Shown here: one piece after another, positions 4,305 through 35,919 of the stretch
Layout: the number at the start of each line of letters is the position of its first letter
Numbering within the stretch: position 1 is the first letter of the stretch
IMG/VR virus record: IMGVR_UViG_3300010883_000038
Coordinates: 1-54,108 of that record
Reading direction: 5' to 3' (one strand)
From: a virus
DNA length: 54,108 nucleotides
Program-made: the position numbers and the translations under genes
Notes under the pieces: model-generated
What the model saw: only the letters and a program-made list of their open reading frames with translations
The model's database searches: none
Told to the model about the DNA's origin: nothing

Positions 4305-5111
4305 TTAATCATTATTAGCTTCAGTAACAGCGATAGTTCCTGTTGAAGTTCGAAGGCATGCCTTTACAGTCATTGTGTCGGTTGCAGCACTAGAATGAAA
4401 GTAGATAAATGAACCTGCCAACATAGTGCTACCGCCTGAATCGGTTAGAATTAACTGATTGTGAAGATCCGTAAAAGCTCCAACCCTTGTCATCGTAGTA
4501 CCGCCAGCATTAGATACAAATATTTCAGTTGATTGAGCATCAAATTCATTGTTAACGTGCATCTGAAATGATAAAATGCCACCAGCTGTTACTACATTAT
4601 TTGTAAATATAAGTAACGTTTGATGGGTGTCAGCAGTAAGATCTGGTATTGAGAGTGCTACATCATCATAGTTACCAGTTAATCTGACTACTTTCATATC
4701 AGCTGTTGGCATAGCGCCTGCTTCTACTGGAAAGTCAGCGCCCAAAATACCGGTACCGTCAAGTAAAACGCCAGCTTGTGCTACTGTAACTACGCCAGTT
4801 TGTAGTGCTAAGCCTTGTAGCGCATAAGATAATCTTAGAGCCATATTAGCGCTAGTCAAAACATTCTCTGTTGATACTTCTGCAGTTTGGCCTTCTAATA
4901 TGCCGCCGAAGTTTGTATTCCATGTAGGGTTTAAACCTGAAATGTGCATATCATTAACTAATCCAGCTAAAGCGTCAGACGATTTGACACCAGTTGTAAT
5001 ACCACCCGATACTGTTGTTACGCCGGCTAATTCTACAGCATTTGAAAATGCTACTCCTGTTCCTGTTTTTTGAACCAGACCTTTTGCGTCTGTAATTTCT
5101 ACTCTTGGCAT
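4305..5111 (-). CDS. Putative virion protein after the major capsid gene, unknown
   Basis: A 268-aa protein I do not recognise. Composition is rich in Ala, Gly, Thr and Val with few charges. The second half (about residues 140-268) alternates hydrophobic and polar residues as beta-sandwich proteins do, for example LLIFTNNVVTAGGILSFQMH and SFIYFHSSAATDTMTV. No signal peptide or membrane helix is evident. It is an isolated transcription unit directly downstream of the major capsid gene, with its own terminator and a leader of about 150 bases carrying two promoter-like elements. That arrangement would suit a highly expressed virion component such as a head-decoration or outer capsid protein, but nothing in the sequence proves it. 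The start has GGAG at proper spacing. Confidence 0.75.
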   Translation of the reverse strand: MPRVEITDAKGLVQKTGTGVAFSNAVELAGVTTVSGGITTGVKSSDALAGLVNDMHISGLNPTWNTNFGGILEGQTAEVSTENVLTSANMALRLSYALQGLALQTGVVTVAQAGVLLDGTGILGADFPVEAGAMPTADMKVVRLTGNYDDVALSIPDLTADTHQTLLIFTNNVVTAGGILSFQMHVNNEFDAQSTEIFVSNAGGTTMTRVGAFTDLHNQLILTDSGGSTMLAGSFIYFHSSAATDTMTVKACLRTSTGTIAVTEANND

Positions 5112-11195: not shown

Positions 11196-11702
11196 CTAGG
11201 ATGAATATGCTGCGATGCTATAGACCGCCGCGGCTACACCGGCCACAGCTGCTGTTGTTGATATTCCAGATATGTCTGCAGTATTATGTATGTCTGGGAA
11301 CTCTCTTACACTTGTTAGACCTGCTATTAAAGAAATTGTTAGGTCGTTAATATTATTAGGTACTTCAATCAATATCCTTTTGCACTTAAGCTCGAGAGGT
11401 ACAGATATTCCGTTAAGTGTTGCTGCAGGAATGTGATTATCGGCTTGAATACCGGCTGTGGAAGCGACGTCAGAAAACCCAACCATAACATTGGTTAGTG
11501 TTCCACCGAGCGTTAAATATATCCAACGAGATACATACGGCAATGTTAATGTAACTATTTTGGCACCGGAGAGGTCGCCAAGAGCTTTATAAAAAACAAA
11601 CGGAACGCCGCTTTGCTGATATTCTGCAGCGTTATTATGGTTTGGTTTTGGATAACGCATCGATGCAGCTGCATCAGCGCGGTCGAGATCAAGATATGAC
11701 AT
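11196..11702 (-). CDS. Putative virion protein, 168 aa, unknown
   Basis: Its ATG overlaps the protease stop (TAATG), so it is translationally coupled to gp21. The 168-aa product starts with a polar segment (MRYPKPNHNNAAEYQQSG), then shows alternating hydrophobic strands (AKIVTLTLPYVSRWIYLTLG, and KRILIEVPNNINDLTISLI). It ends in a small-residue hydrophobic stretch (STTAAVAGVAAAVYSIAAYSS), which could be a membrane-active or packing helix. The length recalls tail-tube proteins, but the sequence does not fit T4 gp19, so I do not make that call. A small head or virion component is the most economical guess. Confidence 0.72.
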   Translation of the reverse strand: MSYLDLDRADAAASMRYPKPNHNNAAEYQQSGVPFVFYKALGDLSGAKIVTLTLPYVSRWIYLTLGGTLTNVMVGFSDVASTAGIQADNHIPAATLNGISVPLELKCKRILIEVPNNINDLTISLIAGLTSVREFPDIHNTADISGISTTAAVAGVAAAVYSIAAYSS

Positions 11703-12316
11703 TATTTATTACTCCATGTTAGTATATCGTTAAGTATTCTATCCACTCTATCTGATTTATTAAACACTTTATTTAAATCAGCTTCATTTATTTCGCGCCC
11801 TTCTTTCATCATAAAAGCACCTGGCGTGGATGGCTCTGAAACGAAATCCCAACATATAAGCTGAAAATCGTCTTGTACAATTTGATTATCCCCCTCGCGA
11901 CGAGTAGACCCTACCCCTCGAGAAGATATCCCTAAAGTCACCCCAGAATCTACTAGAGCCTTAAGGATTTGACCGGCTGGTGTTTCTAATACCTCTACAG
12001 TACCGTAACAAACGTCACCATCCATATATGCCTCTGTGATTATATGCGAAGCGTTCTTTAATTCAACAACCGAAGATTCTGGATGGTCTAATTCTCCTAA
12101 CGCTCTCCTTTCAGCGATAAACTTTTGATAATTTCTTATTTCTCGCGATAAGATCTCTATAGGATATATTCTTCCGTTTTGATTCAAAGTATTTGCTTTC
12201 TGCAAAACCCCCTTCATTATATACCTTCCGCCAGAATTAGTTTTCTCTTCTAGAAGCTGATCTTTGTCGAATGTCCATGCGTTCCATTCCTGCAATAGCT
12301 TAATTGTATTATCCAC
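11702..12316 (-). CDS. 21: Prohead core protease, gp21-like
   Basis: A 204-aa homologue of T4 gp21, the serine protease inside the prohead that degrades scaffold and trims capsid proteins, then itself. Typical features are the N-terminal KGVLQKANTLNQNGRIYP (residues 35-52), the catalytic-histidine segment RALGELDHPE (His78), a strand region ITEAYMDGDVCYGTVEVL, and the nucleophile segment SGVTLGISSRGVGS with Ser131/132. Then comes LICWDFVSEPSTPGAFM. This Asp-His-Ser layout is shared with herpesvirus assemblin-like prohead proteases. Length is close to T4 (212 aa). Translation starts at a GTG with an AAAGGAGA ribosome site and overlaps the preceding gene by eight bases. Position after portal and before scaffold fits T4. 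Confidence 0.93.
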   Translation of the reverse strand: MDNTIKLLQEWNAWTFDKDQLLEEKTNSGGRYIMKGVLQKANTLNQNGRIYPIEILSREIRNYQKFIAERRALGELDHPESSVVELKNASHIITEAYMDGDVCYGTVEVLETPAGQILKALVDSGVTLGISSRGVGSTRREGDNQIVQDDFQLICWDFVSEPSTPGAFMMKEGREINEADLNKVFNKSDRVDRILNDILTWSNK

Positions 12317-13151
12317 GTGTCTTCTCCTTTAACTCGTTTTGTAATTGACACAATGTCATGAATCTACTAAACGTTTCATCGTTAATATCTTCTGTATCTA
12401 GGTTTTTAAGCTCTAACAGAACCGGTGAGATTTTTGATTTAACTAATGAAGAATCGCAAGAATCATGATACACTTTTAATCCAGTCAAACAATTTTCTTT
12501 GATTGACTCTAATGTTGATTTAAAGCTGTAAGAAGTTTCCGCAAAAACATACTGCTTAATTAAAGACTTTTGAACATCTGTTAATCTAGACTTATACCGG
12601 TTGTTGAATTTTTCAGTCATTATCTTTACGACAAGATTATCTACTTCCGGAACTCTTTGTTCTGCTAAACTAACTGTTGATTTTTTTCTGATCAATATAT
12701 TATGAGCCTTGTTTTCGTACTCTACTAATCTTTCGAAATCTTTGCTTTCGCATCGCCAATCATTAATCAGCGTCTGGATTGTGGCAAAATCTTTATACTC
12801 TTTAATCTTTGTTTTATAAAATGACTTTCCAAACGACAAATTGATATCTCTAATCATTTTAGACTTTTCTCTTTCCAACCTAGAATGATCATGAGAACGT
12901 GAAGCCTTTTTTGCCTCTCCTAGAATAGCCGTAGCCAAACTTGGATCGCTTATTTCTGGCTTAATCAATGCCTGAAATAGCTTGTGCTCTTTATAAAGCT
13001 CTGTGCCCGGTTTAAAATACGTTTTAATTATATTTTTTGCCGTTGCCAATGTTTCATGATTATTCTCTACAATCCCCTTTGACATAGTCAAAATTAACTG
13101 CTCGTAAATAATCCCGACATTTCTTTTTTTGTTGTGAGATTTTCTATTCAT
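12309..13151 (-). CDS. Hypothetical protein between portal and protease, 280 aa
   Basis: Not recognised. The 280-aa product is basic, predicted nearly all helical, and starts with a very basic segment (MNRKSHNKKRNVGIIYEQL). It has long charged helices and an acidic helical end. There are no membrane segments and no evident catalytic motif. The start overlaps the portal stop by eight bases and has a GGAGG site; its own stop overlaps the protease start. Tight coupling between portal and protease suggests a role in portal or core assembly. T4 has gp67 and gp68 in this interval, but they are much smaller, so this may be a non-homologous core or initiator protein (inference). Confidence 0.75.
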   Translation of the reverse strand: MNRKSHNKKRNVGIIYEQLILTMSKGIVENNHETLATAKNIIKTYFKPGTELYKEHKLFQALIKPEISDPSLATAILGEAKKASRSHDHSRLEREKSKMIRDINLSFGKSFYKTKIKEYKDFATIQTLINDWRCESKDFERLVEYENKAHNILIRKKSTVSLAEQRVPEVDNLVVKIMTEKFNNRYKSRLTDVQKSLIKQYVFAETSYSFKSTLESIKENCLTGLKVYHDSCDSSLVKSKISPVLLELKNLDTEDINDETFSRFMTLCQLQNELKEKTRG

Positions 13152-16100
13152 CGTCTTCCTCCAATTCGAAGTCTAATTCCTCATCGATATTTTCTTTAAG
13201 GACTTGTTTAATACCTAATCCAGAACGCATTGATTCTAACGCTCTTAACATACCGTGATCCAAACTTGGGCGATAACCAATATAATTATCATCATCAACA
13301 GTAGATTTCCCTAAAATCATGTCAGCTAATGATTCTTTTTTAGATTCTGAAAATGGTTTGCCAAATGGGTTTTTTAAAAAGTCTTTGTCATAAGGGTCAT
13401 TTAAAGTATCCTGAGCCCTTCCGGCCTTACCAGTTGACACCATGGTTTTAAAATCTGGCATGCCAGTTTCTAACGGGCCGCCCTTAACTTTTCTGTCGCG
13501 CTTCTTAACTAACGGCTCGCCCCATATGTTTTTTTGTTTAACGTTTGAAGAAGGTTTTACTCCATCCATAGATATATTCTCTATATCTATATCATCATCT
13601 GAATATTCCTCGTCAGAGTTATACTCATCATCCGCTTCTTTCATTTTGCTGCGATATTTAGAAGGCTCTGCTGTTAATAAATCGCCTTGATTGTAATCTG
13701 ATGCGAATAGATCTACACCACCATCTCCGCCGTCATCTCCGCCGTCATCTCCGCCAGCGTCTCCTCCAGCTTCAGGTGCAGTTGTAGCCTCAAGCTCTAA
13801 ATCCGCGCGCTTGTCTTCAACCTTTTCGTCTTCTATTCTCTCTATTTCATCTCGTGTGAAGCCAAATACATTTCTTCGTATCCATCCGCGAGATACCATC
13901 CCTTCTGGAACGGCCGATGCTATACTAAACTTTTGCTCTATTAATGCCAGTTTTTGCTGCTGTGCAAGAGATGATGGGTTTGATAACTGTAAACTGAAAT
14001 CTAATAGATCTTCTCCATCGAAACCGTGAGAAAATAAATGTATCATAGCGATTTTGTTTAACTCAGCTATAATTGTTTTTTGAATACGCTGAATTGTTCT
14101 ACTGAACCTTATATCTTCTTGAGCCAGTGTTGCTTTTGCTCCGACATCTTCGTCATATCCAAGATAAGCTTTTGGTATTTTCAATGCAGCAAACAACTTT
14201 TTCTGAATGTACTCTACATCCTCGATAGCCGAGGTATTTTGCCCGCCTGCTAAATTGTCGATCTTTGTACCAGACTCCCCACCGCGGACTGGTATGAAAT
14301 AATCCTCATCTACGCTATTTTTAACAAATACACCGTTTTTGCTATATTTCCCGTCTAATTCGATCGATTGAACAGCAAAATTATGACGATCATCTTCACC
14401 TTTCGGCCCAATGACAGTCATACAATATACATCAGACGAATCAAATACTTCCTCTGTTCGAATTACTTTGTGATTTCTATATCCTTGATCAACTGCTGAT
14501 CTAAAATCACCGTAACCTTTTGCTAATCCTTCACGCTTCGCAACAGAAACCATAGCTGCAATGTTGAATTTAGAAACACTCCTATTATTGTTCTTATTAG
14601 CTTCTTCTAACAACTCTGTAATTTTATTATCAGATCTGATTGCATCGGTTAAATCATTACGATTAATCTTTGGATTTTGACTAATCTGATCTGCAACAAA
14701 TTCGAATACTTCTTTTGGAATATTCCATCTCATCGATTCTTTTCTTACTTTCTTATCGACTTTCCATGAAGCTGCTTGTCCTACACGCCGATTTTCATTA
14801 TGGGATTTATGAAGATCTGATCCATTATACCCTGCCATTGCAGCAACAGAATTTCTTTCAATATTCCATTTAGACTGGTTTTTTCTTTTTTCAGCTGACT
14901 TATTATAAGCGATTAGATTTTCTCTTCCAACTAATGCATGATATTTCCAATGATCAACATTACCCATCCACACTAAATTTGATGGTGTGGCATCAAGACT
15001 ATTAAAATTCTTGTGATGTACTACTAAATTATTGTTAATACCCCAATTGATATCTTTTCTGGCTGTTTCTCTTTGTTCACATAATGCAGAATTCGCAACT
15101 CGTCTGTGGATTAAAATATCTTTATTTGTACCGGGATCATATACAATCGGATATCCTTGAATATCCCAGTTTTCTTCTTTGCTACTCATCTTTCGATATA
15201 ATGGCATTAAGCTGTCATCAGCTTCCAATTCGTCTGCTCTTTTAGAAGATCCATCTCTCATCACGAATGGATGTTCTGGAGCTGTCATGACGTATGTATC
15301 ATCATCTAACCATACTTTGATCATCATATCTGCGGTATAGTTTTTTCCGCACCACGAGACTTTTCCGGGAACAATCTGGTTTGTTTCGTCTTGAATCGAA
15401 TATACCCAACATTCTTTTCCAGCGTCGACTTCTTTTGACAATTCTTCTATAGTTAAAGTTCTGCCGTCAAGAAGAGGTATTGGAGTATCCTTCCAGATAG
15501 GCATAGGGTTATATCTTAAATCAACCTGTCCTGTCGACTTATTAACTACCGGTGCTCTTTTTAAAGCTGTCTTAGCCTGCTCTACGTAATTAGGAACATC
15601 TTCAGGTGGTACGTTTCCGACGTCGATATAAAAAACACGACGCTCTGGTGATCTCATAACCCGGTATACCAGCATGGCATCTTCAATCAATATTAACTGT
15701 CGCCAAATTCGTCTGGCGGATTCTAAAACGGATGAGCCATATGGTAAAAAGGCGTCGTTACCTAATAAACGGAAATGTGATATTTGCCAATTCTCGAGAA
15801 CCTGATTACCGTTTGCAACCCACCGAAACCTAACGGCTGATGGATCATCCGGATCATACCCTTCCTCTCTTTCCATCTCTGTAATAGGAATTGGATAAGC
15901 GTTGATAACGCCGAATTCTGGATGGATATCGTTAAAAAGGAAAAAATCGCCGTACTTGACTAAATTTCTAACCCACATCACCATATTAAAATCAACGTTC
16001 AATGTATCATAAAAAAGTGTGCTCAATAACTCTCTGATTTTTCTATTATCAGACCTAATATGCAGACACTTACCTTCAGCATCTTCAGACACCGTTTCTT

Positions 16101-17499
16101 CAGCGTATATGTCTAATGCTGACGCAATTTCTGGAGTGTTATGAATAATAATAGAATCAGTTGCATAATTCTTATATCCGTCAACTGTCAAATCGTAAAG
16201 GTCAATCACTTCATAAGGCTCAACCGAAACCACTTTATGGTTTTCGAAGTTATCTCTGAAATCTTGAACGTTTGCAAATCCGTTTTGCTTTAGTCTTCCC
16301 AAGATTTTCACGTAAGTAGTACCAAGAGCTGCAGCCCACGTGGACGACTTAATACCAGGTGAATAAGCATTACATACAGCCTGGTATGATAAACCCTTAT
16401 CATATCGAGGATTCTTATCACCTTTATTATTCCACCCGTTATTACGCCATTTTGAGTCATAAGCTGTTGCGAACGAAGTGAAGTTCTTAAAACCATTATC
16501 TCTCAGTCTATTACTAATAACGGTTGAAGAACAATCAAGAGTCATTTGCAGTTTTGCCCAGTTATATCCGTCTCTGTCACACAGCTGTAAAATCTTTGGA
16601 AATGTGACGTCAGATCTTTCAGCTGGATTATTCTCTGTCATAAATTTACTGTGATTTATCTTGAAATTCTTTATCCATTCACTGTTGATACTATGATCCC
16701 ATTTTTTCCCATTGAGAATCTCTGCATGATAAGCCAAATGTTCTTTTGCATCCATGATTTGTAAGTTCTCTGGGCTGTTATCAAATTTCTTAAAGTTTTT
16801 ATGGTGTACGTGTTCTGTACTCAAAACTTTTCTATCCGCAACCCATGCTGCTATTAACCTGTGCTCAGCTATCCAACCATTGTTCATCGTCGAATTTTTT
16901 TTATCCATCGTATAAACCCACTGATAACCTGTTGAATCTTCTTTTTCTCCGGGTTTTGCGAAGAAATCTCGTCGATAAAAAGGCATCATAGAGTCATTTA
17001 CTTGCAAATCTTGTACTTCGCAATAAGTACCATCTCTTCTCATTACACGGTGATCTGCAGTTGCTATTAATTCTTTGCCCGAATCAAACGTGACTTTGTA
17101 AGCCATTTGTGTAGATGTCTTCCGAGCGCATTTGCCAAATGTCGGCACAATTTGCTGTTTTTCATGATCATAAGCATATACGATAAATGAATAATCAGCA
17201 TTAGCCTCACATCGTTTTGCAAGCTCTTGTATTTCTACAAAGCCACTAGGCGAAGCTATTTTAGTCCATCCTGCAACACATGCTTCCATTTCAGCAAAAT
17301 CAGAATACCTTGCCATACGATCGAAAGCGCCGTAGGCCGACATTGTGGAATTATAAACGTCAGAATGCTGCTTTTTAAACATCTCGACCGAAGAAGATGC
17401 CCCCTTAGCCTTTGCATCATAACTTTTTATTTTCCTCTTTATGGTTGGACCTGACCTAAACAGTTTCGTTAATCTTCTAAATAAATTTTCTTCAGCCAT
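13144..17499 (-). CDS. 20: Portal protein precursor with two inteins, gp20-like
   Basis: A 1451-aa precursor that should give a 675-aa portal after removal of two inteins (residues 74-454 and 667-1061). The portal is the 12-fold ring through which DNA is packaged; T4 gp20 has 524 aa. Exteins show conserved portal segments: RYSDFAEMEA / TPEIASALDIYAEE (split by intein 1), VRNLVKYGDFFLFND, RLLGNDAFLPYGSSVLE, VMRSPERRVFYIDVGN, RYNPM / SVDEDYFIPVRGG (split by intein 2), then IPKAYLGYDED and ATLAQEDIRFSRTIQ. The C-terminus (about residues 1220-1451) is an added Gly/Asp-rich and acidic region that may contact scaffold or be disordered. The ATG has a GAGGAA site, and the stop overlaps the next gene. 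The frame is intact throughout, so splicing, not frameshift, explains the size. Confidence 0.95.
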   Translation of the reverse strand: MAEENLFRRLTKLFRSGPTIKRKIKSYDAKAKGASSSVEMFKKQHSDVYNSTMSAYGAFDRMARYSDFAEMEACVAGWTKIASPSGFVEIQELAKRCEANADYSFIVYAYDHEKQQIVPTFGKCARKTSTQMAYKVTFDSGKELIATADHRVMRRDGTYCEVQDLQVNDSMMPFYRRDFFAKPGEKEDSTGYQWVYTMDKKNSTMNNGWIAEHRLIAAWVADRKVLSTEHVHHKNFKKFDNSPENLQIMDAKEHLAYHAEILNGKKWDHSINSEWIKNFKINHSKFMTENNPAERSDVTFPKILQLCDRDGYNWAKLQMTLDCSSTVISNRLRDNGFKNFTSFATAYDSKWRNNGWNNKGDKNPRYDKGLSYQAVCNAYSPGIKSSTWAAALGTTYVKILGRLKQNGFANVQDFRDNFENHKVVSVEPYEVIDLYDLTVDGYKNYATDSIIIHNTPEIASALDIYAEETVSEDAEGKCLHIRSDNRKIRELLSTLFYDTLNVDFNMVMWVRNLVKYGDFFLFNDIHPEFGVINAYPIPITEMEREEGYDPDDPSAVRFRWVANGNQVLENWQISHFRLLGNDAFLPYGSSVLESARRIWRQLILIEDAMLVYRVMRSPERRVFYIDVGNVPPEDVPNYVEQAKTALKRAPVVNKSTGQVDLRYNPMPIWKDTPIPLLDGRTLTIEELSKEVDAGKECWVYSIQDETNQIVPGKVSWCGKNYTADMMIKVWLDDDTYVMTAPEHPFVMRDGSSKRADELEADDSLMPLYRKMSSKEENWDIQGYPIVYDPGTNKDILIHRRVANSALCEQRETARKDINWGINNNLVVHHKNFNSLDATPSNLVWMGNVDHWKYHALVGRENLIAYNKSAEKRKNQSKWNIERNSVAAMAGYNGSDLHKSHNENRRVGQAASWKVDKKVRKESMRWNIPKEVFEFVADQISQNPKINRNDLTDAIRSDNKITELLEEANKNNNRSVSKFNIAAMVSVAKREGLAKGYGDFRSAVDQGYRNHKVIRTEEVFDSSDVYCMTVIGPKGEDDRHNFAVQSIELDGKYSKNGVFVKNSVDEDYFIPVRGGESGTKIDNLAGGQNTSAIEDVEYIQKKLFAALKIPKAYLGYDEDVGAKATLAQEDIRFSRTIQRIQKTIIAELNKIAMIHLFSHGFDGEDLLDFSLQLSNPSSLAQQQKLALIEQKFSIASAVPEGMVSRGWIRRNVFGFTRDEIERIEDEKVEDKRADLELEATTAPEAGGDAGGDDGGDDGGDGGVDLFASDYNQGDLLTAEPSKYRSKMKEADDEYNSDEEYSDDDIDIENISMDGVKPSSNVKQKNIWGEPLVKKRDRKVKGGPLETGMPDFKTMVSTGKAGRAQDTLNDPYDKDFLKNPFGKPFSESKKESLADMILGKSTVDDDNYIGYRPSLDHGMLRALESMRSGLGIKQVLKENIDEELDFELEEDDE
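13724..13768 (-). repeat. 20: Short tandem repeat encoding Gly-Asp tract of portal C-terminus
   Basis: Units of about 12 bases (ccgtcatctccg type) repeat and encode GGDDGGDDGGDGG. Low-complexity and probably length-variable. Confidence 0.6.
14317..15501 (-). other. Intein 2 of the portal (class 3-like, HNH endonuclease)
   Basis: A 395-residue intein (precursor residues 667-1061). Block A is PIWKDTPIPLLDGRTLTIEE, which aligns with the usual C-x-x-D-T start but has Pro in place of the nucleophile. Block B (YVMTAPEHPFVM) keeps T-x-x-H. Block F reads SSDVYCMTVIG, with Cys1026 where class 1 inteins have Asp. The end is GVFVKN followed by Ser, lacking the usual penultimate His. A non-nucleophilic first residue with a block F Cys and Ser/Thr +1 is the hallmark of class 3 inteins. 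The class 3 Trp in block B is Phe here, so it is class 3-like. An HNH domain (VVHHKNFNSLDATPSNL, then HWKYHA) and a DNA-binding region lie inside. Confidence 0.88.
16138..17280 (-). other. Intein 1 of the portal (class 1, HNH endonuclease)
   Basis: A 381-residue intein (precursor residues 74-454). Cys74 is the first residue (CVAGWTKIAS), block B reads LIATADHRV with the T-x-x-H motif, block F is VIDLYDLTVDG, and the end is SIIIHN followed by Thr, so penultimate His, terminal Asn and +1 Thr are all present. This is the standard class 1 arrangement and should be splicing-competent. Between the blocks lies an HNH homing endonuclease (HVHHKNFKKFDNSPENL, then HLAYHAE). Two similar helix-turn-helix-like units follow, each ending in RL..NGF.N...F (around residues 331-343 and 402-414), probably for DNA recognition. 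It interrupts the highly conserved portal motif before TPEIASALDIYAEE. Confidence 0.93.
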
Positions 17500-17529: not shown

Positions 17530-19098
17530 TTATTTCATAAGCCAGTCAAAATTAGGTTCTGACTGTGGACCGTTAGGCAATATTGATTTATTCCCATTCT
17601 TATCAAATCCTGCGTTATGATCATTATTTTTAGTTGAATTGCTGCTAACCCCAAACGCCGCAAGCATAGCAGAATTTAAATCTGTTCCATGCGAACTTAG
17701 CTGAGGGCTAGTATCATATAGCCAAACCCCAATAGCTAAAGCCATAATCAAATCATCGTTTTGTCCTTTTTGAGCTTGTGCCTTTCCGTTCTTCCAAACG
17801 AATGTTTTTAGTTCTGAATACAATCTAGATGATTTTATCATGATTTGTTTTGTCCGTAAAACTTCTTCTAGCTTTGTTAATATTTGATTTCTAGTTTTTA
17901 CGTTTGTTTGAAACCCTATTTTTCCGATATCTTTTGTTCCATACATATAGCTATAACGATCTTTTTCGCTTGGAAAATAAAGATTTTTATAATTCATTTC
18001 TGATAATTTCATTATTACTGCATATCCGTATGAGTTATTTTCAGGGCACAATAATGCATCGTTATACCGACGGCCTGCTTCAGCTAAAATTAATGCGAAT
18101 TTATCCGGAGGCTGCTTCCCTCTGTACTCAGCTACAACCGCTGATGCACTTGTATCGATTACGTAAAACGTAGAATAGTCTTTAGCATCGCCACGGGCGA
18201 CATCTGCTGAAATTACATATTTCTTATCACTGAGTGGGTAATTCCACACCCAGACACCCATATCCGGTCCCCATCGATCGATAGGCTCCCTAATCCAGGC
18301 TCTTAAATACTCGATATCCTCAGCTTGAAGAAAAGTATCGCCAGAAGCTTGGAAATCGCACATTAACTCTTGCGCAATCTGCTTTTTAGACATGTTTTTT
18401 GTTTCTTCTTTAAACCATTCCTCGCCCCTATCAGGATGGACGTCCCATTGAAGCTTAATTGGGTTAAATTTATTTTCTCCATCAACTGCTTGCTTCCATA
18501 AATCATAATATTGACCGCCAACGCCGTTTGGAGTAGATAATACGATAGCACGACCACCGGTTGATAATGTTGGGTACAAACCTGTCCACAATGTATCGAA
18601 ATTACGCACAAATGCCGCTTCATCAACAATTAAAAGTGTCAATGCCTCAGATCTACCTGCGTCGTCTGATGTAGGGATAGCTTTTATTGTTGATCCGTTT
18701 GAAAACTCTAATGCTTGCTTGTTATTGTTAACTATCTCTGGCAGCAACAACCACTTTGGCATAGTCTGAATAACAAACTTAACTTTTCTAATAAAGTTTT
18801 GAGCTACTGCCAACTTTGTAGCAATAACTAATACGTTTTTGTCTTTATGAAATATTGCTAGCCAAGCTGAATAGCCAGCAGCGATCGTAGAAAGACCAAG
18901 CTGCCGTGATTTTAAAATTATATTAAATCTGTGCTCTTCAAACTGCTCGACGCAATCGTTCTGAAACGGATATGTTTTAAATGGGATAGCACCCTTGATC
19001 GGATGCTGAATTTGAACGTATTTATTAAAAAAATACTGTGGATCTTTTCCACACTTTATTATTTCTTTTATTTGCCGCTGTTTTTGACTAACTGACAT
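17530..19098 (-). CDS. 17: Large terminase subunit, gp17-like
   Basis: The packaging motor and headful nuclease. With the ATG at 19098 as start (a TTG two codons earlier is also open) the product has 522 aa, against 610 in T4. ATPase domain: adenine-binding region YPFQNDCVEQF, Walker A-like KSRQLGLST (residues 63-71), Walker B LLIVDEAAF (155-163) and coupling motif VLSTPNG (187-193). Nuclease domain of RNase H fold: ISADVARGDAKDYST with Asp299, then CPENNSYG with Glu353, and a late Asp in GQNDDLIMALAIG. The final 60 residues are polar, like the portal-contacting C-terminus of other terminases. The start overlaps the previous gene by 11 bases, and the portal gene follows after 30. Large terminase is certain; no small subunit was identified in the window. 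Confidence 0.95.
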   Translation of the reverse strand: MSVSQKQRQIKEIIKCGKDPQYFFNKYVQIQHPIKGAIPFKTYPFQNDCVEQFEEHRFNIILKSRQLGLSTIAAGYSAWLAIFHKDKNVLVIATKLAVAQNFIRKVKFVIQTMPKWLLLPEIVNNNKQALEFSNGSTIKAIPTSDDAGRSEALTLLIVDEAAFVRNFDTLWTGLYPTLSTGGRAIVLSTPNGVGGQYYDLWKQAVDGENKFNPIKLQWDVHPDRGEEWFKEETKNMSKKQIAQELMCDFQASGDTFLQAEDIEYLRAWIREPIDRWGPDMGVWVWNYPLSDKKYVISADVARGDAKDYSTFYVIDTSASAVVAEYRGKQPPDKFALILAEAGRRYNDALLCPENNSYGYAVIMKLSEMNYKNLYFPSEKDRYSYMYGTKDIGKIGFQTNVKTRNQILTKLEEVLRTKQIMIKSSRLYSELKTFVWKNGKAQAQKGQNDDLIMALAIGVWLYDTSPQLSSHGTDLNSAMLAAFGVSSNSTKNNDHNAGFDKNGNKSILPNGPQSEPNFDWLMK

Positions 19099-19492
19099 TA
19101 CCAACGCTCAAAGAATATACTATAATTCTAGAATATCTTGCACGCACTAACTCTCTATTATGCGATACATGAACTACTTCTGGGTTTTGCTCGTTTAAAA
19201 TCTTTAATTTAAGAGTTACTCCAGCTCTTTCTTTAAAATCGGATTTAACTGTTTTTACTTTCTCTGTTAAAGCCTTAATACTAGCTGCGTCTAATTCTTT
19301 TTTCTGTGTTTCTAACCCTAATCTTGGATTGAAATTAACAGGACACTCAAATCTTAACGCTATTTTTAACTCGCCTGTTTCAGGGCATGTACTTGTTTTA
19401 TGACGGATAGCGTACCCCTCTCTAATCGAGCCTCTTCCGAATGTAACGTCAAGTAAGTTTTCAAGTATGTTATAGTGGTTCATATTTAGCAT
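19088..19492 (-). CDS. Hypothetical protein upstream of terminase, 134 aa
   Basis: Start placed at the ATG at 19492-19490, which has an AGGAG site eight bases upstream; a reading from 19534 would add 14 residues and has no such site. The 134-aa product shows mixed alpha/beta character: an N-terminal helix (NHYNILENLLDVTF), strands (ELKIALRFECPVNF), a Lys-rich helix (SIKALTEKVKTVKSDFK) and strands at the end (YSRIIVYSLSVG). No family is recognised. In T4 the gene before gp17 encodes the small terminase gp16, but this protein does not have that all-helical look, so I leave it unnamed. It lies two bases after the zinc-ribbon gene stop. Confidence 0.72.
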   Translation of the reverse strand: MLNMNHYNILENLLDVTFGRGSIREGYAIRHKTSTCPETGELKIALRFECPVNFNPRLGLETQKKELDAASIKALTEKVKTVKSDFKERAGVTLKLKILNEQNPEVVHVSHNRELVRARYSRIIVYSLSVGNVS

Positions 19493-19493
19493 A

Positions 19494-19754
19494 TTAATTC
19501 TCCTGATTATTATTAAATATTCTGTTCTTGACATCTTTTCCGGTCGGACGCCAACCTTGTTGCCATTTTTCTTTATTAGGTTGACGAAATATTAACGAAC
19601 AATCTAAACAACAGTCAAAATTTTCGTGCTCTACTATATCCTCTTGATGCCGAAGAGCAAAGCCACAAATACTACAATCTGCTGCAGCACGTTTATAATT
19701 ATGTGGCTTGATTATTAATAAACCATCTTTTCTTTCATATATTACATTAGACAT
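19494..19754 (-). CDS. Small zinc-ribbon-like protein, 86 aa
   Basis: Start chosen at ATG 19754-19752, since the longer reading begins at a TTG. The 86-aa product has paired cysteines C27-x-x-C30 and C49-x-x-C52 (DCSICGFAL and CCLDCSLIF), which would bind one zinc ion. A Trp-rich basic segment follows (NKEKWQQGWRPTGKDVKNRI). Zinc ribbons of this size often bind nucleic acid or bridge proteins. It overlaps the end of the Mre11-Rad50 gene by eight bases, so it is likely co-translated with recombination functions. Precise function is unknown. Confidence 0.72.
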   Translation of the reverse strand: MSNVIYERKDGLLIIKPHNYKRAAADCSICGFALRHQEDIVEHENFDCCLDCSLIFRQPNKEKWQQGWRPTGKDVKNRIFNNNQEN

Positions 19755-22700
19755 ACACAACCTGGGAATCTTTTCCCTGTTTTGTTATCTCTACTATGTT
19801 ATCTACAGAATCCTTAATAACATCTACATGGGAAATTATCATGATCAAACGATAATATGACTTAAGGCGTCGCAACAATGCTGTTGCTGCTTCGAGATTC
19901 TGTGGATCTAAAGACCCAAACCCTTCATCAACTATAAACATGTCTGACTTGTTAAGATTTGAAACGTTCCCTAATGCCACCCTCAATGCCATCGATGAAA
20001 CCATCTTTTCCATTCCACTAGCGCACTCAATCGGCCGGCGCGAATCTCCGTAATTTATAAATATATCTGTTTTCCTATCAGTTATATCTAACTCAACTGT
20101 AAACCCTGACAAATCCTGAAGAATATTTGTCAACTCAGCGTTAATGATTGGTAACTGCTTTTTCATTATATATGTTGGAATCCCTCGCCAACTAGTCGCC
20201 TTCAATAAATAATCGTATACTCTCCACTCTACCTGCAACCGATCGTATTCTAATGACTCTTCTTCTAACTGCTTAATCGTTGCCTGACACTTTCCTATGT
20301 TTTGAGCTAAACTAAACATTTCTGACTTTTGATCTTTTATGTTTCTATCTATCTCTTTCATGGATTTTTTGATCTGTGCTAATACAGCCGTTTTTTCGCC
20401 GTCAACGTTTAATTCTAAATCAGTAATTTCATCCGATAAATTTCTAATATCAGATTGAAAAAATTCTATCGATCGCTTTTCACCCTCTATTTTAGAATCT
20501 AAAACAATAATTTCCATTTTGCAATCTTGAATCGACTTTGTTAACTCGTTATACCGATCAATTTTCTGTCTTAAACCCTCACCCTCAAGCAAATCAAACT
20601 TAGATTTTGCTTCGTCTAACTCTCGTTTCAGATTTAAAACTAACCCCTTTTGCTCTTTAAGTAACCCCTTGTTCTTATGAGACTCAGATATAAACCGACA
20701 TGTTGGAAACATATCATCGCATGGCACCTCTTTAAGAAGCGAAACTGACTTCTTCTGATTAGCCATTAATGTTTTCTCTTGCTTTAATCCCGCGGACATC
20801 TTTTGTAGATTACTTTTTAAACCATCCATTAATTCTAATCGTCTCTGATACGACTCGAGTGGGAAATTTTCTTTAATATTAATATAATTTGCCTGTGTTT
20901 CTTTCTTTAAACTAATCTTACTTTGTAAAGCACTTAAGTTGTTAATAACCAGCTCTAATCCTGACTTCTTATCGATAAGTAGGTTTGTTTTATATGCTAA
21001 TACGGCCGGATCCGTAAAATCACCTACGACTTCCTCAGCAGCTTTAAATTTATATGCCTCGTATCGCTCAGATAATATACTTATTTTTTCAGTTATATCC
21101 GATCTCTGCTCTTTAAAACTATTGATGTTTGATCGATTATTTCTTATAAGAGTAACCCAATCTTTTTCTGACAATCTTTTCAACATAGCCTTTACGCCAG
21201 CAGAATCTTCTTTAACTATCCCTTGGATCTGATCGAATATATCTAATCCCATGAAATTTGAAATAGTCTTTTTCCTCTCTGTTGCCCCCTGAGCTATAAA
21301 TGAATTCATGTTCCCCTGCGCGGCAAATGACGTCATCATAAAATCCTCTGGAGTTCCTATTAAATTCCGAAGATTCTTCTCTGTATCTCGACGCTGCTCG
21401 CCAGATATATCCTTGATAATCTGCCCATCATCATTAACCTCATATAATGAAAGGTAAGACATTGCGCCCTCGCCCTTACCACCGCGAGCTGGATAACGTA
21501 CCGAGTGTCTCTCTAATCGATAAAGCTTTCCATTAACAGAAAAGGTTATGTCTGCCGAACAATTTGAGCGCCGAGAATTAATCACATGCTGAATAGATGT
21601 TATCCCTCTATCATTTGAATTAAATAATGCATACATCATTGTTCCAGGAATAGAAGACTTTCCAGAACGATTCTTTCCAAATAATCCAACGATCCCAGAC
21701 AGCTTTGAAAAGTTAATCGAATTATCCTTTCCATACCCAAATGTATTATCAAAATTCATCTCTCTAATAGACCATTGATTCCCTAAATTATCTTTTGGCA
21801 CGTTAATTTTAGGAATTGTTTCGTCAACGATTCTATCAACCGCAGCCCAGAAATCAACATCATCCGTTTCGTCGTCACACCACTCTCTAAGCAAATTCTT
21901 ATGAATCGATGCGTCCGAAAGATCGTCTATTTTAATTTTCTCTGATGTCTCCGCAGAGATAGAATTCTGCTTTAACTTTAACTGATATACAACCTCGTCA
22001 GCAGCGTGCTCTCTCCGAAGAACAGTAGCCATTTTCCTTTGTGCCTTTGGCCCTAACTCAATTGTTGATCGAATCCGATACCTAGCGCCTTTTGGCCAAT
22101 TGTCCATACACTCGGATATTGTTGACTGCACTGTACCTTGCCAATCGACGGTAACGAAAGGATTATGATGCTTAATTGGATAAAAGTCAACAGAAAAATC
22201 GTCGTTAGACTTAATATCCCATAATAAAAAACCTTTCTCGCCAGACTCTCCGTAATTCTGCTGAATTGTTGATCCGGGATACCAGATTCTTCCCTCTTTA
22301 TCTAGCTGCTGTTTCTTATGAATATCTCCCAACATAACGAAATCAAATCCGCGGAAAAAATCCATCTTGCAATCGCCATCTAACATGAAATTCATATCTG
22401 TATGAGACCCCCACACTGAACCATGATATATTGCTATACTAGTTTTCCCCTCAACAGGCCTAACGTTAGAATACCCCTCTTCGTCAAAAGGACTGAATGC
22501 GCACCAAACAAAATCAGAATTAGATGGATCTTCATACATTCCTGAATCTCTATAAAGATGCACATTTTGCAAATTCAATGCCCTCAATATAGGTGAGATT
22601 GCATCCTGTCTATCCTTATTGTTAATAAGACCGTCATGGTTACCTAATAGAATGTGCACCGGAGCGATTCTACTCATTTCAGTAAACCACCAATTAAGGC

Positions 22701-22878
22701 AATCGATCAACTCAGGACTAATCCCTTGTGTCTTCGAATGTACGATATCCCCTGCTAAACAGATAGCATCGACTTTTAATGATGCTAATTGTTCAAACAT
22801 ATCTTTAAAAGATCTTCTGTATTCTGTATGGCGAGTTAAACCTCGCCAATGGACGTCTGCAATATGGGCAATTCTCAT
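19747..22878 (-). CDS. Fused Mre11-Rad50 (SbcD-SbcC, gp47-gp46) recombination nuclease
   Basis: A 1043-aa single chain that joins two proteins encoded by separate genes in T4 (47 and 46). Residues 1 to about 360 are a calcineurin-like phosphoesterase: IADVHWRG (Asp8, His10), LAGDIVHS (Asp44), LLGNHDG (Asn80, His81), YHGSVWGSH and LGDIHKKQ. Residues about 366-1043 are a Rad50/SbcC ATPase: Walker A LFGKNRSGKSS (399-409), long coiled coils with a hook-like PCDDMFPTC (Cys720, Cys727), ABC signature ECASGMEKM (951-959), and Walker B MFIVDEGFGSLD (980-991). The complex resects DNA ends and feeds recombination-dependent replication. The reading frame is continuous, with no internal stop. The hook spacing (six residues between Cys) differs from the usual CxxC. 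The start has an AGGAA site. Confidence 0.93.
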   Translation of the reverse strand: MRIAHIADVHWRGLTRHTEYRRSFKDMFEQLASLKVDAICLAGDIVHSKTQGISPELIDCLNWWFTEMSRIAPVHILLGNHDGLINNKDRQDAISPILRALNLQNVHLYRDSGMYEDPSNSDFVWCAFSPFDEEGYSNVRPVEGKTSIAIYHGSVWGSHTDMNFMLDGDCKMDFFRGFDFVMLGDIHKKQQLDKEGRIWYPGSTIQQNYGESGEKGFLLWDIKSNDDFSVDFYPIKHHNPFVTVDWQGTVQSTISECMDNWPKGARYRIRSTIELGPKAQRKMATVLRREHAADEVVYQLKLKQNSISAETSEKIKIDDLSDASIHKNLLREWCDDETDDVDFWAAVDRIVDETIPKINVPKDNLGNQWSIREMNFDNTFGYGKDNSINFSKLSGIVGLFGKNRSGKSSIPGTMMYALFNSNDRGITSIQHVINSRRSNCSADITFSVNGKLYRLERHSVRYPARGGKGEGAMSYLSLYEVNDDGQIIKDISGEQRRDTEKNLRNLIGTPEDFMMTSFAAQGNMNSFIAQGATERKKTISNFMGLDIFDQIQGIVKEDSAGVKAMLKRLSEKDWVTLIRNNRSNINSFKEQRSDITEKISILSERYEAYKFKAAEEVVGDFTDPAVLAYKTNLLIDKKSGLELVINNLSALQSKISLKKETQANYINIKENFPLESYQRRLELMDGLKSNLQKMSAGLKQEKTLMANQKKSVSLLKEVPCDDMFPTCRFISESHKNKGLLKEQKGLVLNLKRELDEAKSKFDLLEGEGLRQKIDRYNELTKSIQDCKMEIIVLDSKIEGEKRSIEFFQSDIRNLSDEITDLELNVDGEKTAVLAQIKKSMKEIDRNIKDQKSEMFSLAQNIGKCQATIKQLEEESLEYDRLQVEWRVYDYLLKATSWRGIPTYIMKKQLPIINAELTNILQDLSGFTVELDITDRKTDIFINYGDSRRPIECASGMEKMVSSMALRVALGNVSNLNKSDMFIVDEGFGSLDPQNLEAATALLRRLKSYYRLIMIISHVDVIKDSVDNIVEITKQGKDSQVVYV

Positions 22879-31341: not shown

Positions 31342-34300
31342 TTAACTATCCTTTGGTTGCAGAGTTGTACATTCAATATATATCTGAACGTTAAAATCGT
31401 TGTTAATAGAATTACTGTCTGCTGATTCGTTTAAATCAAATACATAATTATCATTATCGAGTGGTAATAAACTGGATGTACCAACCTCGTGCAACGCCGT
31501 GAGTGGTATTGATAGTTCTCCAAGATGGGTATAAAAAGAAAACACTCGGTCAAACACGTTTGGAGATAAAACCTTTGTTGTCATTTGGTCAGCTGAAAAC
31601 AATCTAGATTGGGTTATAGAAATAAAGTTTGTATATGTTTCGTATGCTGCAGCAATATTGTTACTGCTACTTTTTGCAAGATATTCGTGAAATGGTATTA
31701 TCTTACCATCTTTAACAAAATTCTCTGCGTTTGTAGCGGAAGTATAATCTAAAATCAAATCTAAATTATCATTCGCGAGCTCGTCTAGATACAATATGTT
31801 TGATTCTTTGTTAACGCTAAAGCTTGCCTCATCTACATTAAGACCGGCATATACGTTTAAATAAGTCTTAACTGCGAAATCGTCAAAATGATTTCGCATT
31901 ATCTGGCGAGCCAAGTCCTCAGAACCGAGTCCGGAATCATTTTGCACGGTTTCTATGATCCCTTTGAGCATTGTCTCTATTGTTGATGCAGCTGCAACTT
32001 TATATTTGTATGTATCTTTATCTATATACCCGTACTCTACTGTTTCAAATGCGGTACTTCCAATTTCAACGCTGGCAACTGAAGCGTTGTTAATAAACAG
32101 TGCCGGCCAATAATATCTCTTTATATCGTTGAATTGAATATTCCCTATCACAGATGTTGTTTTTTGATTAATTTTAATCAGCCGATTAACGATTGGGTAA
32201 TTTTCTGAATTGGTTTCTGACACTTGACTGTCAATATACCCGGCTGGGATTCCGATTGTTAATATTTTGCCTTCGTTTGGTTTTGCAACCCCAACATTGT
32301 CTGTGTGCTTTCCCACGACAGATGGAATAAGGGCATTATCGATATACTCTGTTATAATATTAGCATATCCTGTACTTAACGTTGAATTTGACGGCAGATA
32401 TCCGGAGTATGCTCTAGGACGCTCTTCTGATGCTATATATTCTCTTAAGATAGTCTGCCTTAAAGATGAGTATTCGACAACCTCTGCCATTTCTATACCT
32501 GGCAACTTTGCGATATCAAAAAGCACATCGGAATTTGGTATTTCACCCACAAGAGATATATCTGTTTTTATATTTTTAAATTTATCTATTATACTATCTA
32601 GAAACTGAATTATTCTTCTTGCATCTTCTCTTTGATATATACTATATGTGATCATACTACCCATAACCCCTCGAAGCGGAGGCGATTCGAATGCGTTTTT
32701 AGGCACCTCTGCATCATCGATCCATGTGTATGGAACAAAATCATCAGTGTTTGCTAAAAAACTATATCTATTTGCAGCTTTTTCTATAAAAGATCCGAAA
32801 GTCTCACCGGAAGTGGCTAGCCAACTAACTAGAACATCTGGAGTTCCCTCGGATATGATTTCTTTGGCATATGATGGAACTAATTGGTTTAATACAAAAT
32901 CGCTAGTATCTAATTTGTATCCAGCACTTTGCCATTTTCCATATTGACACGCCCATCTTGTTGGCCCCTTTGAAGGATCGACATTTTCCACAATTGGCAA
33001 AAACACTTTTGCAATTTCTGCCGAAATGAACGGTGTATTGTACCGCACACCAATGTAGAGTTTTCCTGTACCAAAATGATCTTTGCTAGCGTAGTGGCCA
33101 TCGATTGGCCACGGGAATGAAGACACTACCTTCTGTGAAATTTCGCTAGCGATTGTTAACACAAGAGCTCTAATTTGCAAATGATGATAATTGCCATTAA
33201 TGGTATATGTATCTGGGTTATTCTGCCATGGTTCGATTGATTTGTATATATTACTTGAAAACGGAGAACTATATATTTCATTTGCAATACCAGCTGCTAC
33301 CGAATCTGTATACGCCCCTGGACTTGTACTAGCGTACCCAGCGTCGTTTGCTAGCACCGCAATATCATAATATATGTTTTTTTCTATTTCGGAAAGCAAA
33401 CAGTTAACAATCGAAAGTGCGTTTTTGATAATGTCTGTAGCCTCGCCAGGATTGATATTTTTGGAAAGCCCCGGATTGCCTGAAATAATTGATAATAATC
33501 TATTTTGCAAAGTATCTGCCCCATCCCCTTGTTGGATTGGGACAGCGACCTGTGTTGTCTGATATGCAAAAAACCAAAAAACTTCTTCATCGTTAAAAAG
33601 CGATATTTGTGACAACAACCAAAAAGCGTATATTGCTTTCTTCGTATTGTATGAATCAACTCCGGCTCTTGTTGTGTCTGCAGCTATTTCTTCGGGATTG
33701 CTTGTGGCGATGATGGATGCTGACCCGTACTGTTTCCCCACTGGCTGATCACCCGGGTTTGGATTTTCAAATTCAACATCCCACCCTGTAAAGGAGGGAC
33801 TGGGTATCATAAATGAAATGCTGCCGCCGGCAGCATTTCCCCATGGCTTGGGAGACCATGCACTTAAATTACCAGAAGACCATGAATAAAGCGCTCTTAA
33901 TACTTCGTTTATCACTATTTGCGAGTTGCCTTTAGACGTGTAAGACGATATTTTTGATTTTGCTGCTTCATGAATAGCCGAATATTTTTCGTTCCACTCG
34001 TCTAAACCCTCAAATTTTAATGGTCTGTCTTCGAATATATTGGCTATATTTGGATCGATCCATTTTTCGACACCAGATATTAGCCTTTTTTCGGATGTTT
34101 CCGAATATATCCCCGGATTGGCAAAAGGCATAATCGATTGCCCTGCTGTATTGAACTTTAATATTTGAGCTAGTTTCTTAGAATTATCTAATAGACCAAT
34201 TTGTTCTTGCGTAATAGCATCACCTATCTCCTGCGACAACAAATTCTCAGTATTAAAAGTTAAAAGCGCTTCTGCATCCGATAAAGGTGAATTAGCTATA

Positions 34301-35919
34301 GCATAAGAGCTAAAAAGCTCTGCATATAGAAGTTGAGCTACATGAGCAGTCATTGCGTCTGAATTGCCAGCAAATCGCGATTTTATAGTTTCTAGCCCAT
34401 CGATCAATTTCTGATTTTCGGAAAGTGTAAAACTATATAGTTTGTTCTGATCATATTCCCCAGCATTAACACCATTGTACCCTAGATTTTGGTTCTGAGA
34501 TTCAGGTTCGGTGCCGGTGATGGTGTTACCGGTGCCGGAAAAAAGGTTGTTGGCGGCGTCGGTGGGGGCGCTGAGAGTGTTTTCAGCTTGACTGCTGTTG
34601 AAGTCTAATATTTGCATCAGGTCGGTCAAGCCCGGGGCATTGGATGCAGAAGAACCGACTTCTTCGTTGTTTGAGAGCTCTCTAGGATTATTAGAGCTGC
34701 CATTGACTTTCGAAAGTCCTGATTTTGATTGTTTAACACCGTTAATAAAATGATATAAAAACCAGCCCCCCGTAGAATTTGGAGATGTTGATAAGTCGTT
34801 ATACATATTTCTAACGGCTCGATTTAAATCTAATTCTTCGCCATATCCTAGGTATCCTAACCCATAAGAATTATAATCTTTCAATGTATCTATAAAAGAT
34901 TGTTTATAAACATCCACTTGTTTTATAAAATCAATGGCTTGATATAATTTCAGCACTTTTTGTTGATTTGTGTCTATTAACTCTGAATATAGATCCGGGT
35001 TGTTTAAAACAATATTATTAACAAAATCTATGACTTTATCTTGCTTTAAAATGTTAAATGTTAACGATGATTGTATCACATTCAATGCAGCGCTGTTAGT
35101 ACTAGAGTTGGGAGCTCCAGCAGCTAAAGGAGCTGTCTCCTGATATGTTGTTTGCATTAATATTTTCGGTCTATTTGTTGCAATCCCTAATTTACTAAGT
35201 GGCGCTGCAGGAGAAAGTGGGATTAAACTATCGTTATCAGCCATATGGCTTTGATGAACAAAACTTGTTGAATCGATATTGACAGATGTGCTATTTAGCA
35301 TCCCCAAAGCTGGATTTGATGATATGTCTATTGAAAGGTGTAGATTGTCTGGATCTTCGAAAGAAGTAGATTGCTCTGTACTATTTTCCCCAGCAGATAA
35401 TCCAGCAGCTTCTTCAGCAGCTTCTGCAGCTTTTCTTCTGAGACGATCGAAAAGGCTCTCTATTCCGGAAGATTCAGGTTTATTGCTTTCCGGATTTGGT
35501 GTTAAAGCATTGTCAACGGTTTCTGTATCTCGAGCTTCTATTTGCGTCGGGCTTTCATACCCCATTGAATATGCATCTAGATCTTCTTCATTCAGATCTA
35601 CTATTATATAGCCGTAGCCGTGCTTTTTTATGAAGTCTCCTGCATCCTGTGGAGCTGACTGTACAAAAGAAATATGGTATGACATGTCTAATTCTAACGC
35701 AGTCATGAAGAACGATAAATTTTCAGCGGTGGCCGTTTCCCCTGGGATAATATCGGATGCGTTTTCTTGAATGACCCTCACCATAGAGTCGACTACTTTA
35801 TTCGGGTCTATTTTATCTGATATGTTTTGCAGCTGCAGATGTATCCCCTCTAAGCTTAGCCACGAATTTAATGATGAGTCTTGAGCTTGGGGCGCATTTT
35901 CTCTACCGTTGTTAGACAT
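31342..35919 (-). CDS. Very large putative virion/baseplate protein, 1525 aa
   Basis: Not recognised. The 1525-aa product has no signal peptide or clear membrane helix and is rich in Asn and Ser. The N-terminus (residues 1-150) has a compact region with SFFMTALELDMSYHISFV and GYGYIIVDLNEEDLDAY. Residues about 140-190 include an Ala/Glu helix (RRKAAEAAEEAAG), and the long middle is mixed. Size and position among structural genes suggest a baseplate or tail-spike scaffold, or an injected virion protein. Codon use changes sharply over about 34495-34645 (residues about 425-473): codons there end in G or C, unlike the rest, suggesting an inserted segment. It starts with GAGGA about nine bases upstream. 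Confidence 0.75.
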   Translation of the reverse strand: MSNNGRENAPQAQDSSLNSWLSLEGIHLQLQNISDKIDPNKVVDSMVRVIQENASDIIPGETATAENLSFFMTALELDMSYHISFVQSAPQDAGDFIKKHGYGYIIVDLNEEDLDAYSMGYESPTQIEARDTETVDNALTPNPESNKPESSGIESLFDRLRRKAAEAAEEAAGLSAGENSTEQSTSFEDPDNLHLSIDISSNPALGMLNSTSVNIDSTSFVHQSHMADNDSLIPLSPAAPLSKLGIATNRPKILMQTTYQETAPLAAGAPNSSTNSAALNVIQSSLTFNILKQDKVIDFVNNIVLNNPDLYSELIDTNQQKVLKLYQAIDFIKQVDVYKQSFIDTLKDYNSYGLGYLGYGEELDLNRAVRNMYNDLSTSPNSTGGWFLYHFINGVKQSKSGLSKVNGSSNNPRELSNNEEVGSSASNAPGLTDLMQILDFNSSQAENTLSAPTDAANNLFSGTGNTITGTEPESQNQNLGYNGVNAGEYDQNKLYSFTLSENQKLIDGLETIKSRFAGNSDAMTAHVAQLLYAELFSSYAIANSPLSDAEALLTFNTENLLSQEIGDAITQEQIGLLDNSKKLAQILKFNTAGQSIMPFANPGIYSETSEKRLISGVEKWIDPNIANIFEDRPLKFEGLDEWNEKYSAIHEAAKSKISSYTSKGNSQIVINEVLRALYSWSSGNLSAWSPKPWGNAAGGSISFMIPSPSFTGWDVEFENPNPGDQPVGKQYGSASIIATSNPEEIAADTTRAGVDSYNTKKAIYAFWLLSQISLFNDEEVFWFFAYQTTQVAVPIQQGDGADTLQNRLLSIISGNPGLSKNINPGEATDIIKNALSIVNCLLSEIEKNIYYDIAVLANDAGYASTSPGAYTDSVAAGIANEIYSSPFSSNIYKSIEPWQNNPDTYTINGNYHHLQIRALVLTIASEISQKVVSSFPWPIDGHYASKDHFGTGKLYIGVRYNTPFISAEIAKVFLPIVENVDPSKGPTRWACQYGKWQSAGYKLDTSDFVLNQLVPSYAKEIISEGTPDVLVSWLATSGETFGSFIEKAANRYSFLANTDDFVPYTWIDDAEVPKNAFESPPLRGVMGSMITYSIYQREDARRIIQFLDSIIDKFKNIKTDISLVGEIPNSDVLFDIAKLPGIEMAEVVEYSSLRQTILREYIASEERPRAYSGYLPSNSTLSTGYANIITEYIDNALIPSVVGKHTDNVGVAKPNEGKILTIGIPAGYIDSQVSETNSENYPIVNRLIKINQKTTSVIGNIQFNDIKRYYWPALFINNASVASVEIGSTAFETVEYGYIDKDTYKYKVAAASTIETMLKGIIETVQNDSGLGSEDLARQIMRNHFDDFAVKTYLNVYAGLNVDEASFSVNKESNILYLDELANDNLDLILDYTSATNAENFVKDGKIIPFHEYLAKSSSNNIAAAYETYTNFISITQSRLFSADQMTTKVLSPNVFDRVFSFYTHLGELSIPLTALHEVGTSSLLPLDNDNYVFDLNESADSNSINNDFNVQIYIECTTLQPKDS
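34495..34645 (-). other. GC-rich codon island inside the 1525-aa gene
   Basis: Codons read ACC, GAC, GCC, GCC, AAC, AAC, then GGC, ACC, GGT, AAC, ACC, ATC, ACC, GGC, in a gene whose codons otherwise end mostly in A or T. The encoded segment is Ser/Thr/Asn-rich (for example NLFSGTGNTITGTEP). It keeps the reading frame. It looks like a linker acquired from DNA with different composition. Confidence 0.6.

Follow-up and report, generated by a model that had tools for sequence, protein, structure and literature searches.

Class 3 inteins are operationally defined by the lack of an N-terminal cysteine combined with a cysteine at position 4 of block F (Cys F:4) (Hoffmann 2020, PMC7891396), and the classical members additionally carry Trp at B:12 and Thr at G:5 (the WCT signature), two positions that deviate in just 6.1 % and 4.6 % of the surveyed members, respectively (PMC7891396). 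According to a review, class 3 inteins have a single origin (PMC4031507); the authors of a structural study argued that a change from class 1 to class 3 is improbable, since grafting of the triplet failed (PMC7664689). Here, we describe the viral DNA record IMGVR_UViG_3300010883_000038 (54,108 nucleotides, analyzed over its whole length and referred to as the window), in which a T4-type portal gene is interrupted by two inteins that, judged by their catalytic residues, belong to different mechanism classes. Intein 1 has the features of class 1, whereas intein 2 starts with proline and is best read as a block-F-nucleophile intein that evolved inside a class 1 family, independently of the classical class 3 inteins.

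Like the classical WCT inteins (e. g., that in the large terminase subunit (TerL) of Phrappuccino, L266, and MP-Be, Msm, and Mle DnaB), intein 2 has no nucleophile at residue 1 (also Pro in Phrappuccino), possesses Cys F:4, and is predicted to adopt the HINT fold. In contrast to them, it lacks Trp B:12 and Thr G:5, contains an HNH instead of the usual LAGLIDADG endonuclease, bears the motif DRHNF in block F, has no penultimate His, and takes a different position in the tree. The split AceL NrdHF intein (an MCT variant), experimentally class 3 despite its deviating triplet, also lacks the penultimate His (PMC7891396), but it differs from intein 2 by its retained Thr G:5, its split nature, and its low similarity to other inteins. 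The same residue layout as in intein 2 is found among isolates in the TerL inteins of phiCbK-like Caulobacter and Brevundimonas phages, annotated since 2012 (PMC3556154): the members read (L258, i. e., phiCbK with Phe B:12 and Val G:5, and L259–L264) have Cys F:4 without Trp B:12 or Thr G:5, and all but Cp1R7A-A1 have Pro1. These laboratory phages thus carry class-3-like TerL inteins outside the WCT type, and the Pro1/Cys F:4 layout without Trp and Thr is therefore not new as such. Their similarity to intein 2, however, is weak and confined to the N-block, most have a penultimate His, and the host gene is a terminase; a plasmid search with the phiCbK TerL intein gave no match. Portal genes are likewise intein hosts in six mycobacteriophages of cluster C1; the paper listing them describes no types other than class 1 and WCT class 3 (PMC5050341). 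Two inteins in one host protein, among them the class 3 intein DnaB-1, are also reported for M. smegmatis DnaB, which is, however, a replicative helicase with a class 3 intein of the WCT type (PMC6195587, PMC5222942). For the Pro1 inteins of portals, their intermediates, and their place in the tree, no description was found in the open-access literature searched.

Catalytic Residues of Intein 2

An original prediction, made from the nucleotide sequence, had recognized both inteins but treated them as alike, thereby overlooking Pro1, the missing penultimate His, and Cys F:4 in the second one. The relevant features are as follows (↓, splice junction):

13144..17499, minus strand: portal (gp20-like) precursor open reading frame (ORF), 1451 amino acids (Pfam Portal_T4, E=2e-70)
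14317..15501, minus strand: intein 2, residues 667–1061 (395 amino acids), with Pro1, block F VYCMTV...DRHNF, and the end KN↓S
15499..15501, minus strand: Pro codon, position 1 of intein 2
15349..15351, minus strand: Cys51 codon of intein 2 (the residue is Cys in 56/56 of the deduplicated Pro1 set and Ala in 56/64 Cys1 relatives)
15271..15273, minus strand: codon of the invariant His77 (B:10) of intein 2
14965..15039, minus strand: HNH endonuclease core of intein 2 (Pfam HNH_3, E=0.02, below cut-off), missing from the minimal allele in L008
14422..14424, minus strand: codon of Cys360 (F:4) of intein 2, the proposed first nucleophile

Class 1 inteins begin with Cys or Ser; Pro1, present in the window copy and in all other members of a set of 64 distinct Pro1 portal inteins, rules out an ordinary class 1 assignment for intein 2. 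With Pro1 and Cys360, it falls under the operational definition of class 3, but it does not bear the WCT signature: block B reads TAPEH, B:12 is Phe79 instead of Trp, and G:5 is Val393 instead of Thr. This holds for nearly the entire set, in which Trp B:12 occurs in 3/64 and Thr G:5 in 1/64 members. Cys F:4, on the other hand, is present in 64/64 (63 scored by pattern; DMYCMTV of L174 was read by eye), while this position varies in the Cys1 relatives (Asp in 26, Thr in 25, and Cys in 16). After deduplication, Pro1, Cys F:4, His B:10, and the block-F Asp-Arg-His are each found in 56 of 56 members, and in an alignment of 45 rows with 34–79 % identity to the window copy these residues as well as Cys51 are invariant. 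The invariance of Cys51 is partly biased, since one of the search patterns (KV[SV]WCGK) included its codon; loci that came from the second scan alone are free of this bias. The +1 residue is Cys in 26/64 members and Ser or Thr in the remaining 38, including the window copy.

Probable Descent from Class 1 Portal Inteins

The Cys1 HNH inteins of T4-like portals (L049, L050, L056, L209, and L053) are homologous to intein 2 over the full length, including the HNH part where present, and share with it the host gene and sometimes even the insertion site (in the relatives L209 and L070, for instance, this portal site is occupied by a Cys1 intein). They differ in Cys1, in a variable F:4 (Cys, Asp, or Thr), in Thr B:7, and, in most of them, in Ala at position 51. 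A maximum-likelihood tree was computed from the splicing blocks after deletion of residue 1, F:4, B:7, B:12, G:5, and G:6. All portal Pro1 inteins form a single clade (100/100) nested among the Cys1 portal inteins. Its nearest sister branch has Cys1 and Cys F:4 (L049, L050, L056; support 99/85), followed outward by another Cys1/Cys F:4 branch (99/86) and then by Cys1/Asp F:4, an order that also held when the terminase outgroup and the longest Cys1 branches were left out.

A constraint uniting the portal Pro1 inteins with the terminase inteins of the WCT and phiCbK types was rejected by the approximately unbiased (AU) test (p=0.011), with the classical class 3 reference being one long branch. 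The comparison set comprised one WCT reference (from a complete phage sequence) and seven phiCbK-type TerL rows, several of them long branches; the PA1C SNF2 intein was represented by a partial sequence only. Profile comparison pointed in the same direction, with a full-length match including HNH between the Pro1 and Cys1 portal inteins (E=1e-84) and a match of the N-block alone to the phiCbK-type TerL Pro1 inteins (E=7e-6). The tree, the AU test, and the profile matches thus lead us to reject a placement of intein 2 inside classical class 3, and common descent with that class finds no support in these data, though measured against a thin WCT reference.

A basal Pro1 group (L041, L043, L048, L091) retains the block B Thr of class 1, which is Ala in most other members. 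The simplest history would be that Cys F:4 was gained, Cys1 was then lost, and Thr B:7 was lost last. We lean slightly towards the further-reaching view that the Pro1 portal inteins represent a second, independently evolved class starting with the block F cysteine, which may have arisen by gain of Cys F:4 beside Cys1, then by acquisition of Pro1, Cys51, and the block-F Asp-Arg, and finally by loss of Thr B:7, and in which a new set of helper residues (perhaps His77 with Asp371/Arg372) would replace Trp and Thr. If true, this second origin would overturn the view that class 3-type splicing arose only once and would show that a class switch is within evolutionary reach. The graded natural series of Cys1/Asp F:4, Cys1/Cys F:4, and Pro1/Cys F:4 in one gene, sometimes at one site, renders the class-switch question directly testable, and natural Pro1 mini-inteins of about 165–175 residues (L022, L240, L181, L201) could serve as protein-ligation tools.

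Boundaries, Empty Sites, and Mobility

The precursor begins with ATG and runs through 1451 codons in a single frame with zero internal stops. It is composed as follows:

17281..17499, minus strand: N-extein, residues 1–73, ending with RYSDFAEMEA (joined to TPEI in uninterrupted homologues)
16138..17280, minus strand: intein 1, residues 74–454 (381 amino acids), class 1, with Cys1, TxxH, Asp F:4 (LYDLTV), and the end HN↓T
16738..16815, minus strand: HNH endonuclease core of intein 1 (Pfam HNH_3, E=0.009, below cut-off)
15502..16137, minus strand: middle extein, residues 455–666, TPEIASALDIYAEE ... RYNPM
13144..14316, minus strand: C-extein, residues 1062–1451 plus stop, beginning with SVDEDYFIPVRGG (joint seen in uninterrupted homologues)

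Intein 1 displays the residues expected of class 1, i. e., Cys1, block B TADH with His at B:10, a His-Asn end, and Thr+1; it would follow the standard path of acyl shift at Cys1, transfer to Thr+1, and Asn cyclization. Each insert on its own matches the Pfam profile Intein_splicing above the curated cut-off (9e-15 for intein 1, 1.4e-10 for intein 2), and blocks A, B, F, and G lie in frame in both. For intein 2, the HINT fold is furthermore supported by an AlphaFold2 model including the flanks (mean predicted local distance difference test score 87), for which Foldseek gave a best E of 2.9e-7 to solved inteins. Searches of the PDB by sequence alone returned weak intein matches only.

Both extein joints are those of uninterrupted portals: EMEA↓TPEI and RYNP[LM]↓SVDED are contiguous in 40 aligned IMG/VR portals, with no gap five or fewer residues away, and blast segments span site 1 in 80/80 and site 2 in 79/80 homologues. 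The original prediction had named a failure of homologues to join at these residues as its refutation; its portal assignment, two inteins with their boundaries, conserved insertion sites, intact frame, and predicted product of 675 residues after removal of residues 74–454 and 667–1061 are thus all borne out. Formation of this normal portal would require splicing of both inteins, which we infer. The structures of T4 gp20 can be aligned via an uninterrupted homologue (E about 1e-30) and place the intein 2 site next to Ser329 (524-residue numbering; counted by hand).

Site occupancy varies among four close relatives. In L008, site 1 is empty and intein 2 is reduced to 249 residues, with most of the HNH endonuclease gone; L009 and L010 contain intein 1 with an empty site 2; and both inteins are present in L011. 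Dozens of related portals are free of both inserts. Since relatives carry one insert without the other, the two inteins of the window, each with an HNH-like core that scores below the curated HNH_3 cut-off, are independently mobile elements at two conserved portal sites, and the occupancy pattern is that of independent homing elements rather than of a conserved regulatory device. In L011, intein 2 (end at 4801) also starts with Pro but finishes with Phe-Gln before Ser+1 instead of the terminal Asn.

Proposed Splicing of Intein 2 and Competing Explanations

As residue 1 is proline, it is unusable as a nucleophile. We therefore propose that Cys360, assisted by His77, would attack the Met666-Pro667 bond to yield a branched thioester, that the N-extein would then be passed to Ser+1, and that Asn395 would cyclize without the usual penultimate His. 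Taken together, we consider it probable that both mobile HNH inteins splice, intein 1 by the class 1 route and intein 2 by a class-3-like route via Cys360 without Trp and Thr, and that the Pro1 clade descended from the class 1 portal family through forms with both Cys1 and Cys F:4. Several points weigh against this. Three class 3 inteins put to the test required Trp B:12 (PMC5222942), and a WCT graft on a class 1 intein was unsuccessful (PMC7664689), so that a class-3-like path without Trp and Thr is unproven; class 1 inteins can also have Cys F:4; and all portal Pro1 members stem from metagenomic contigs. Moreover, the link between Pro1 and Cys F:4 in portals counts as a single evolutionary event passed on to many copies and not as 64 events. 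An additional constraint on F:4 within the Pro1 clade is suggestive only: eight changes map to the Cys1 portion of the tree and none to the Pro1 clade, where 4.1 were expected (p=0.058). Conversely, a tested class 3 intein whose triplet deviates and whose penultimate His is missing splices well (PMC7891396), which makes the further deviation in intein 2 plausible.

It is unlikely that intein 2 instead goes back to a classical WCT intein by loss of Trp and Thr and gain of an HNH domain. Pro1 with Cys F:4 is indeed the class 3 layout, the phiCbK-type TerL inteins indicate that loss of Trp and Thr is possible, and their N-blocks align weakly with those of the portal Pro1 inteins. However, such a descent conflicts with the nesting in the Cys1 portal family (100/100) with its intermediate branches, with the AU rejection of a single group, and with the full-length profile match including HNH to the Cys1 portal inteins, and LAGLIDADG, not HNH, is present in about 82 % of the class 3 inteins known (PMC7891396). 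A class 2-like path, with a direct attack of the +1 residue on the N-terminal junction, would fit the non-nucleophilic residue 1 and the 26 members with Cys+1, but class 2 inteins use Cys+1 and have Asp F:4 (PMC4031507), while the majority of the set, including the window copy, has Ser or Thr at +1; as it also leaves the invariant Cys F:4 unexplained, we regard this path as quite improbable.

Similarly doubtful is a regulated splicing event, be it the timing or sensing step in head assembly, the former proposed in the original prediction, or redox control via Cys51 and Cys360. Admittedly, the portal must be continuous for assembly, intein 2 uses a cysteine, Cys51 is invariant in the Pro1 clade only, and for the DnaB inteins of mycobacteria a role as oxidative stress sensors is reported (PMC6195587). 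No regulatory feature was found, though, and the sporadic occupancy, with close relatives lacking either or both inserts and dozens of portals without both, is typical of mobile elements and leaves the timing argument unsupported. Finally, it is hardly credible that the assembly is faulty or that an insert has degenerated and no longer splices. While the contig is metagenomic and minimal alleles exist, the frame of 1451 codons is unbroken, the same inteins recur, site for site, in many independent metagenomes, the catalytic positions are invariant across wide divergence, and non-splicing inserts would leave the portal broken at two conserved motifs.

Portal Genes with Multiple Inteins

Two collection scans followed by profile searches yielded 138 distinct inteins of the family to which the window inteins belong, nearly all of them, as judged from the flanks, in T4-like portals. 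They occupy about six insertion sites: before (T/S)PEI, RN[LM]↓CKYGD, YNP↓(S/C/T)xxD(Y/F), GGQ(F/Y)↓TGDIDD, GG↓NLGEIDD, and near SKATLAQED. Per distinct ORF, one (75 ORFs), two (25), three (10), or four (2) inteins were counted, i. e., at least three in 12 ORFs. A double insertion in a portal, originally considered unusual, is thus recurrent, and the rarity argument is weakened by related contigs with up to four portal inteins; portal inteins as such had already been listed for mycobacteriophage cluster C1 (PMC5050341). For portals with multiple inteins, no description was found in the open-access literature searched. The ranking of the portal-homologue search favors uninterrupted genes and was accordingly not used to estimate how frequent portal inteins are. 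The multiple insertions mark T4-like portal genes as an intein hot spot, which is relevant for the annotation of viral contigs.

The unannotated 484 kb huge-phage record LR756508.1 (L002, 141895–151736) has a portal ORF with three inteins, two of them small and without endonuclease, and the ORF just upstream contains another intein. The 9 kb contig NVTD01000053.1 (L091), which was binned with a Candidatus Wolfebacteria metagenome-assembled genome and is probably a phage contig in that bin, encodes a T4-like portal that is interrupted four times (by one Ser1, one Cys1, and two Pro1 inteins).

Gene Neighborhood

The Portal_T4 homology is accompanied by the usual T4-type head gene order of terL, portal, prohead protease, and major capsid protein, in agreement with a gp20-type portal. 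Its annotated neighbors are:

17530..19104, minus strand: terminase large subunit, no intein found (PHROG terminase, 5e-51)
11702..12316, minus strand: prohead protease (PHROG head maturation protease, 7e-51)

Elsewhere in the window, a 1043-residue ORF (19747–22878, minus strand) is an apparent fusion of the gp47/gp46 (SbcD/SbcC) nuclease and ATPase; its C-terminal part matches the SbcC PHROG, and the N-terminal nuclease was read by eye. Two adjacent giant ORFs of 1999 and 1432 residues (43426–49425 and 49430–53728, minus strand) and a further ORF of 1525 residues (31342–35919) have no Pfam match. A tandem repeat with a 75-base unit in 3.1 copies (41157–41391) lies within an 822-residue ORF of unassigned function.

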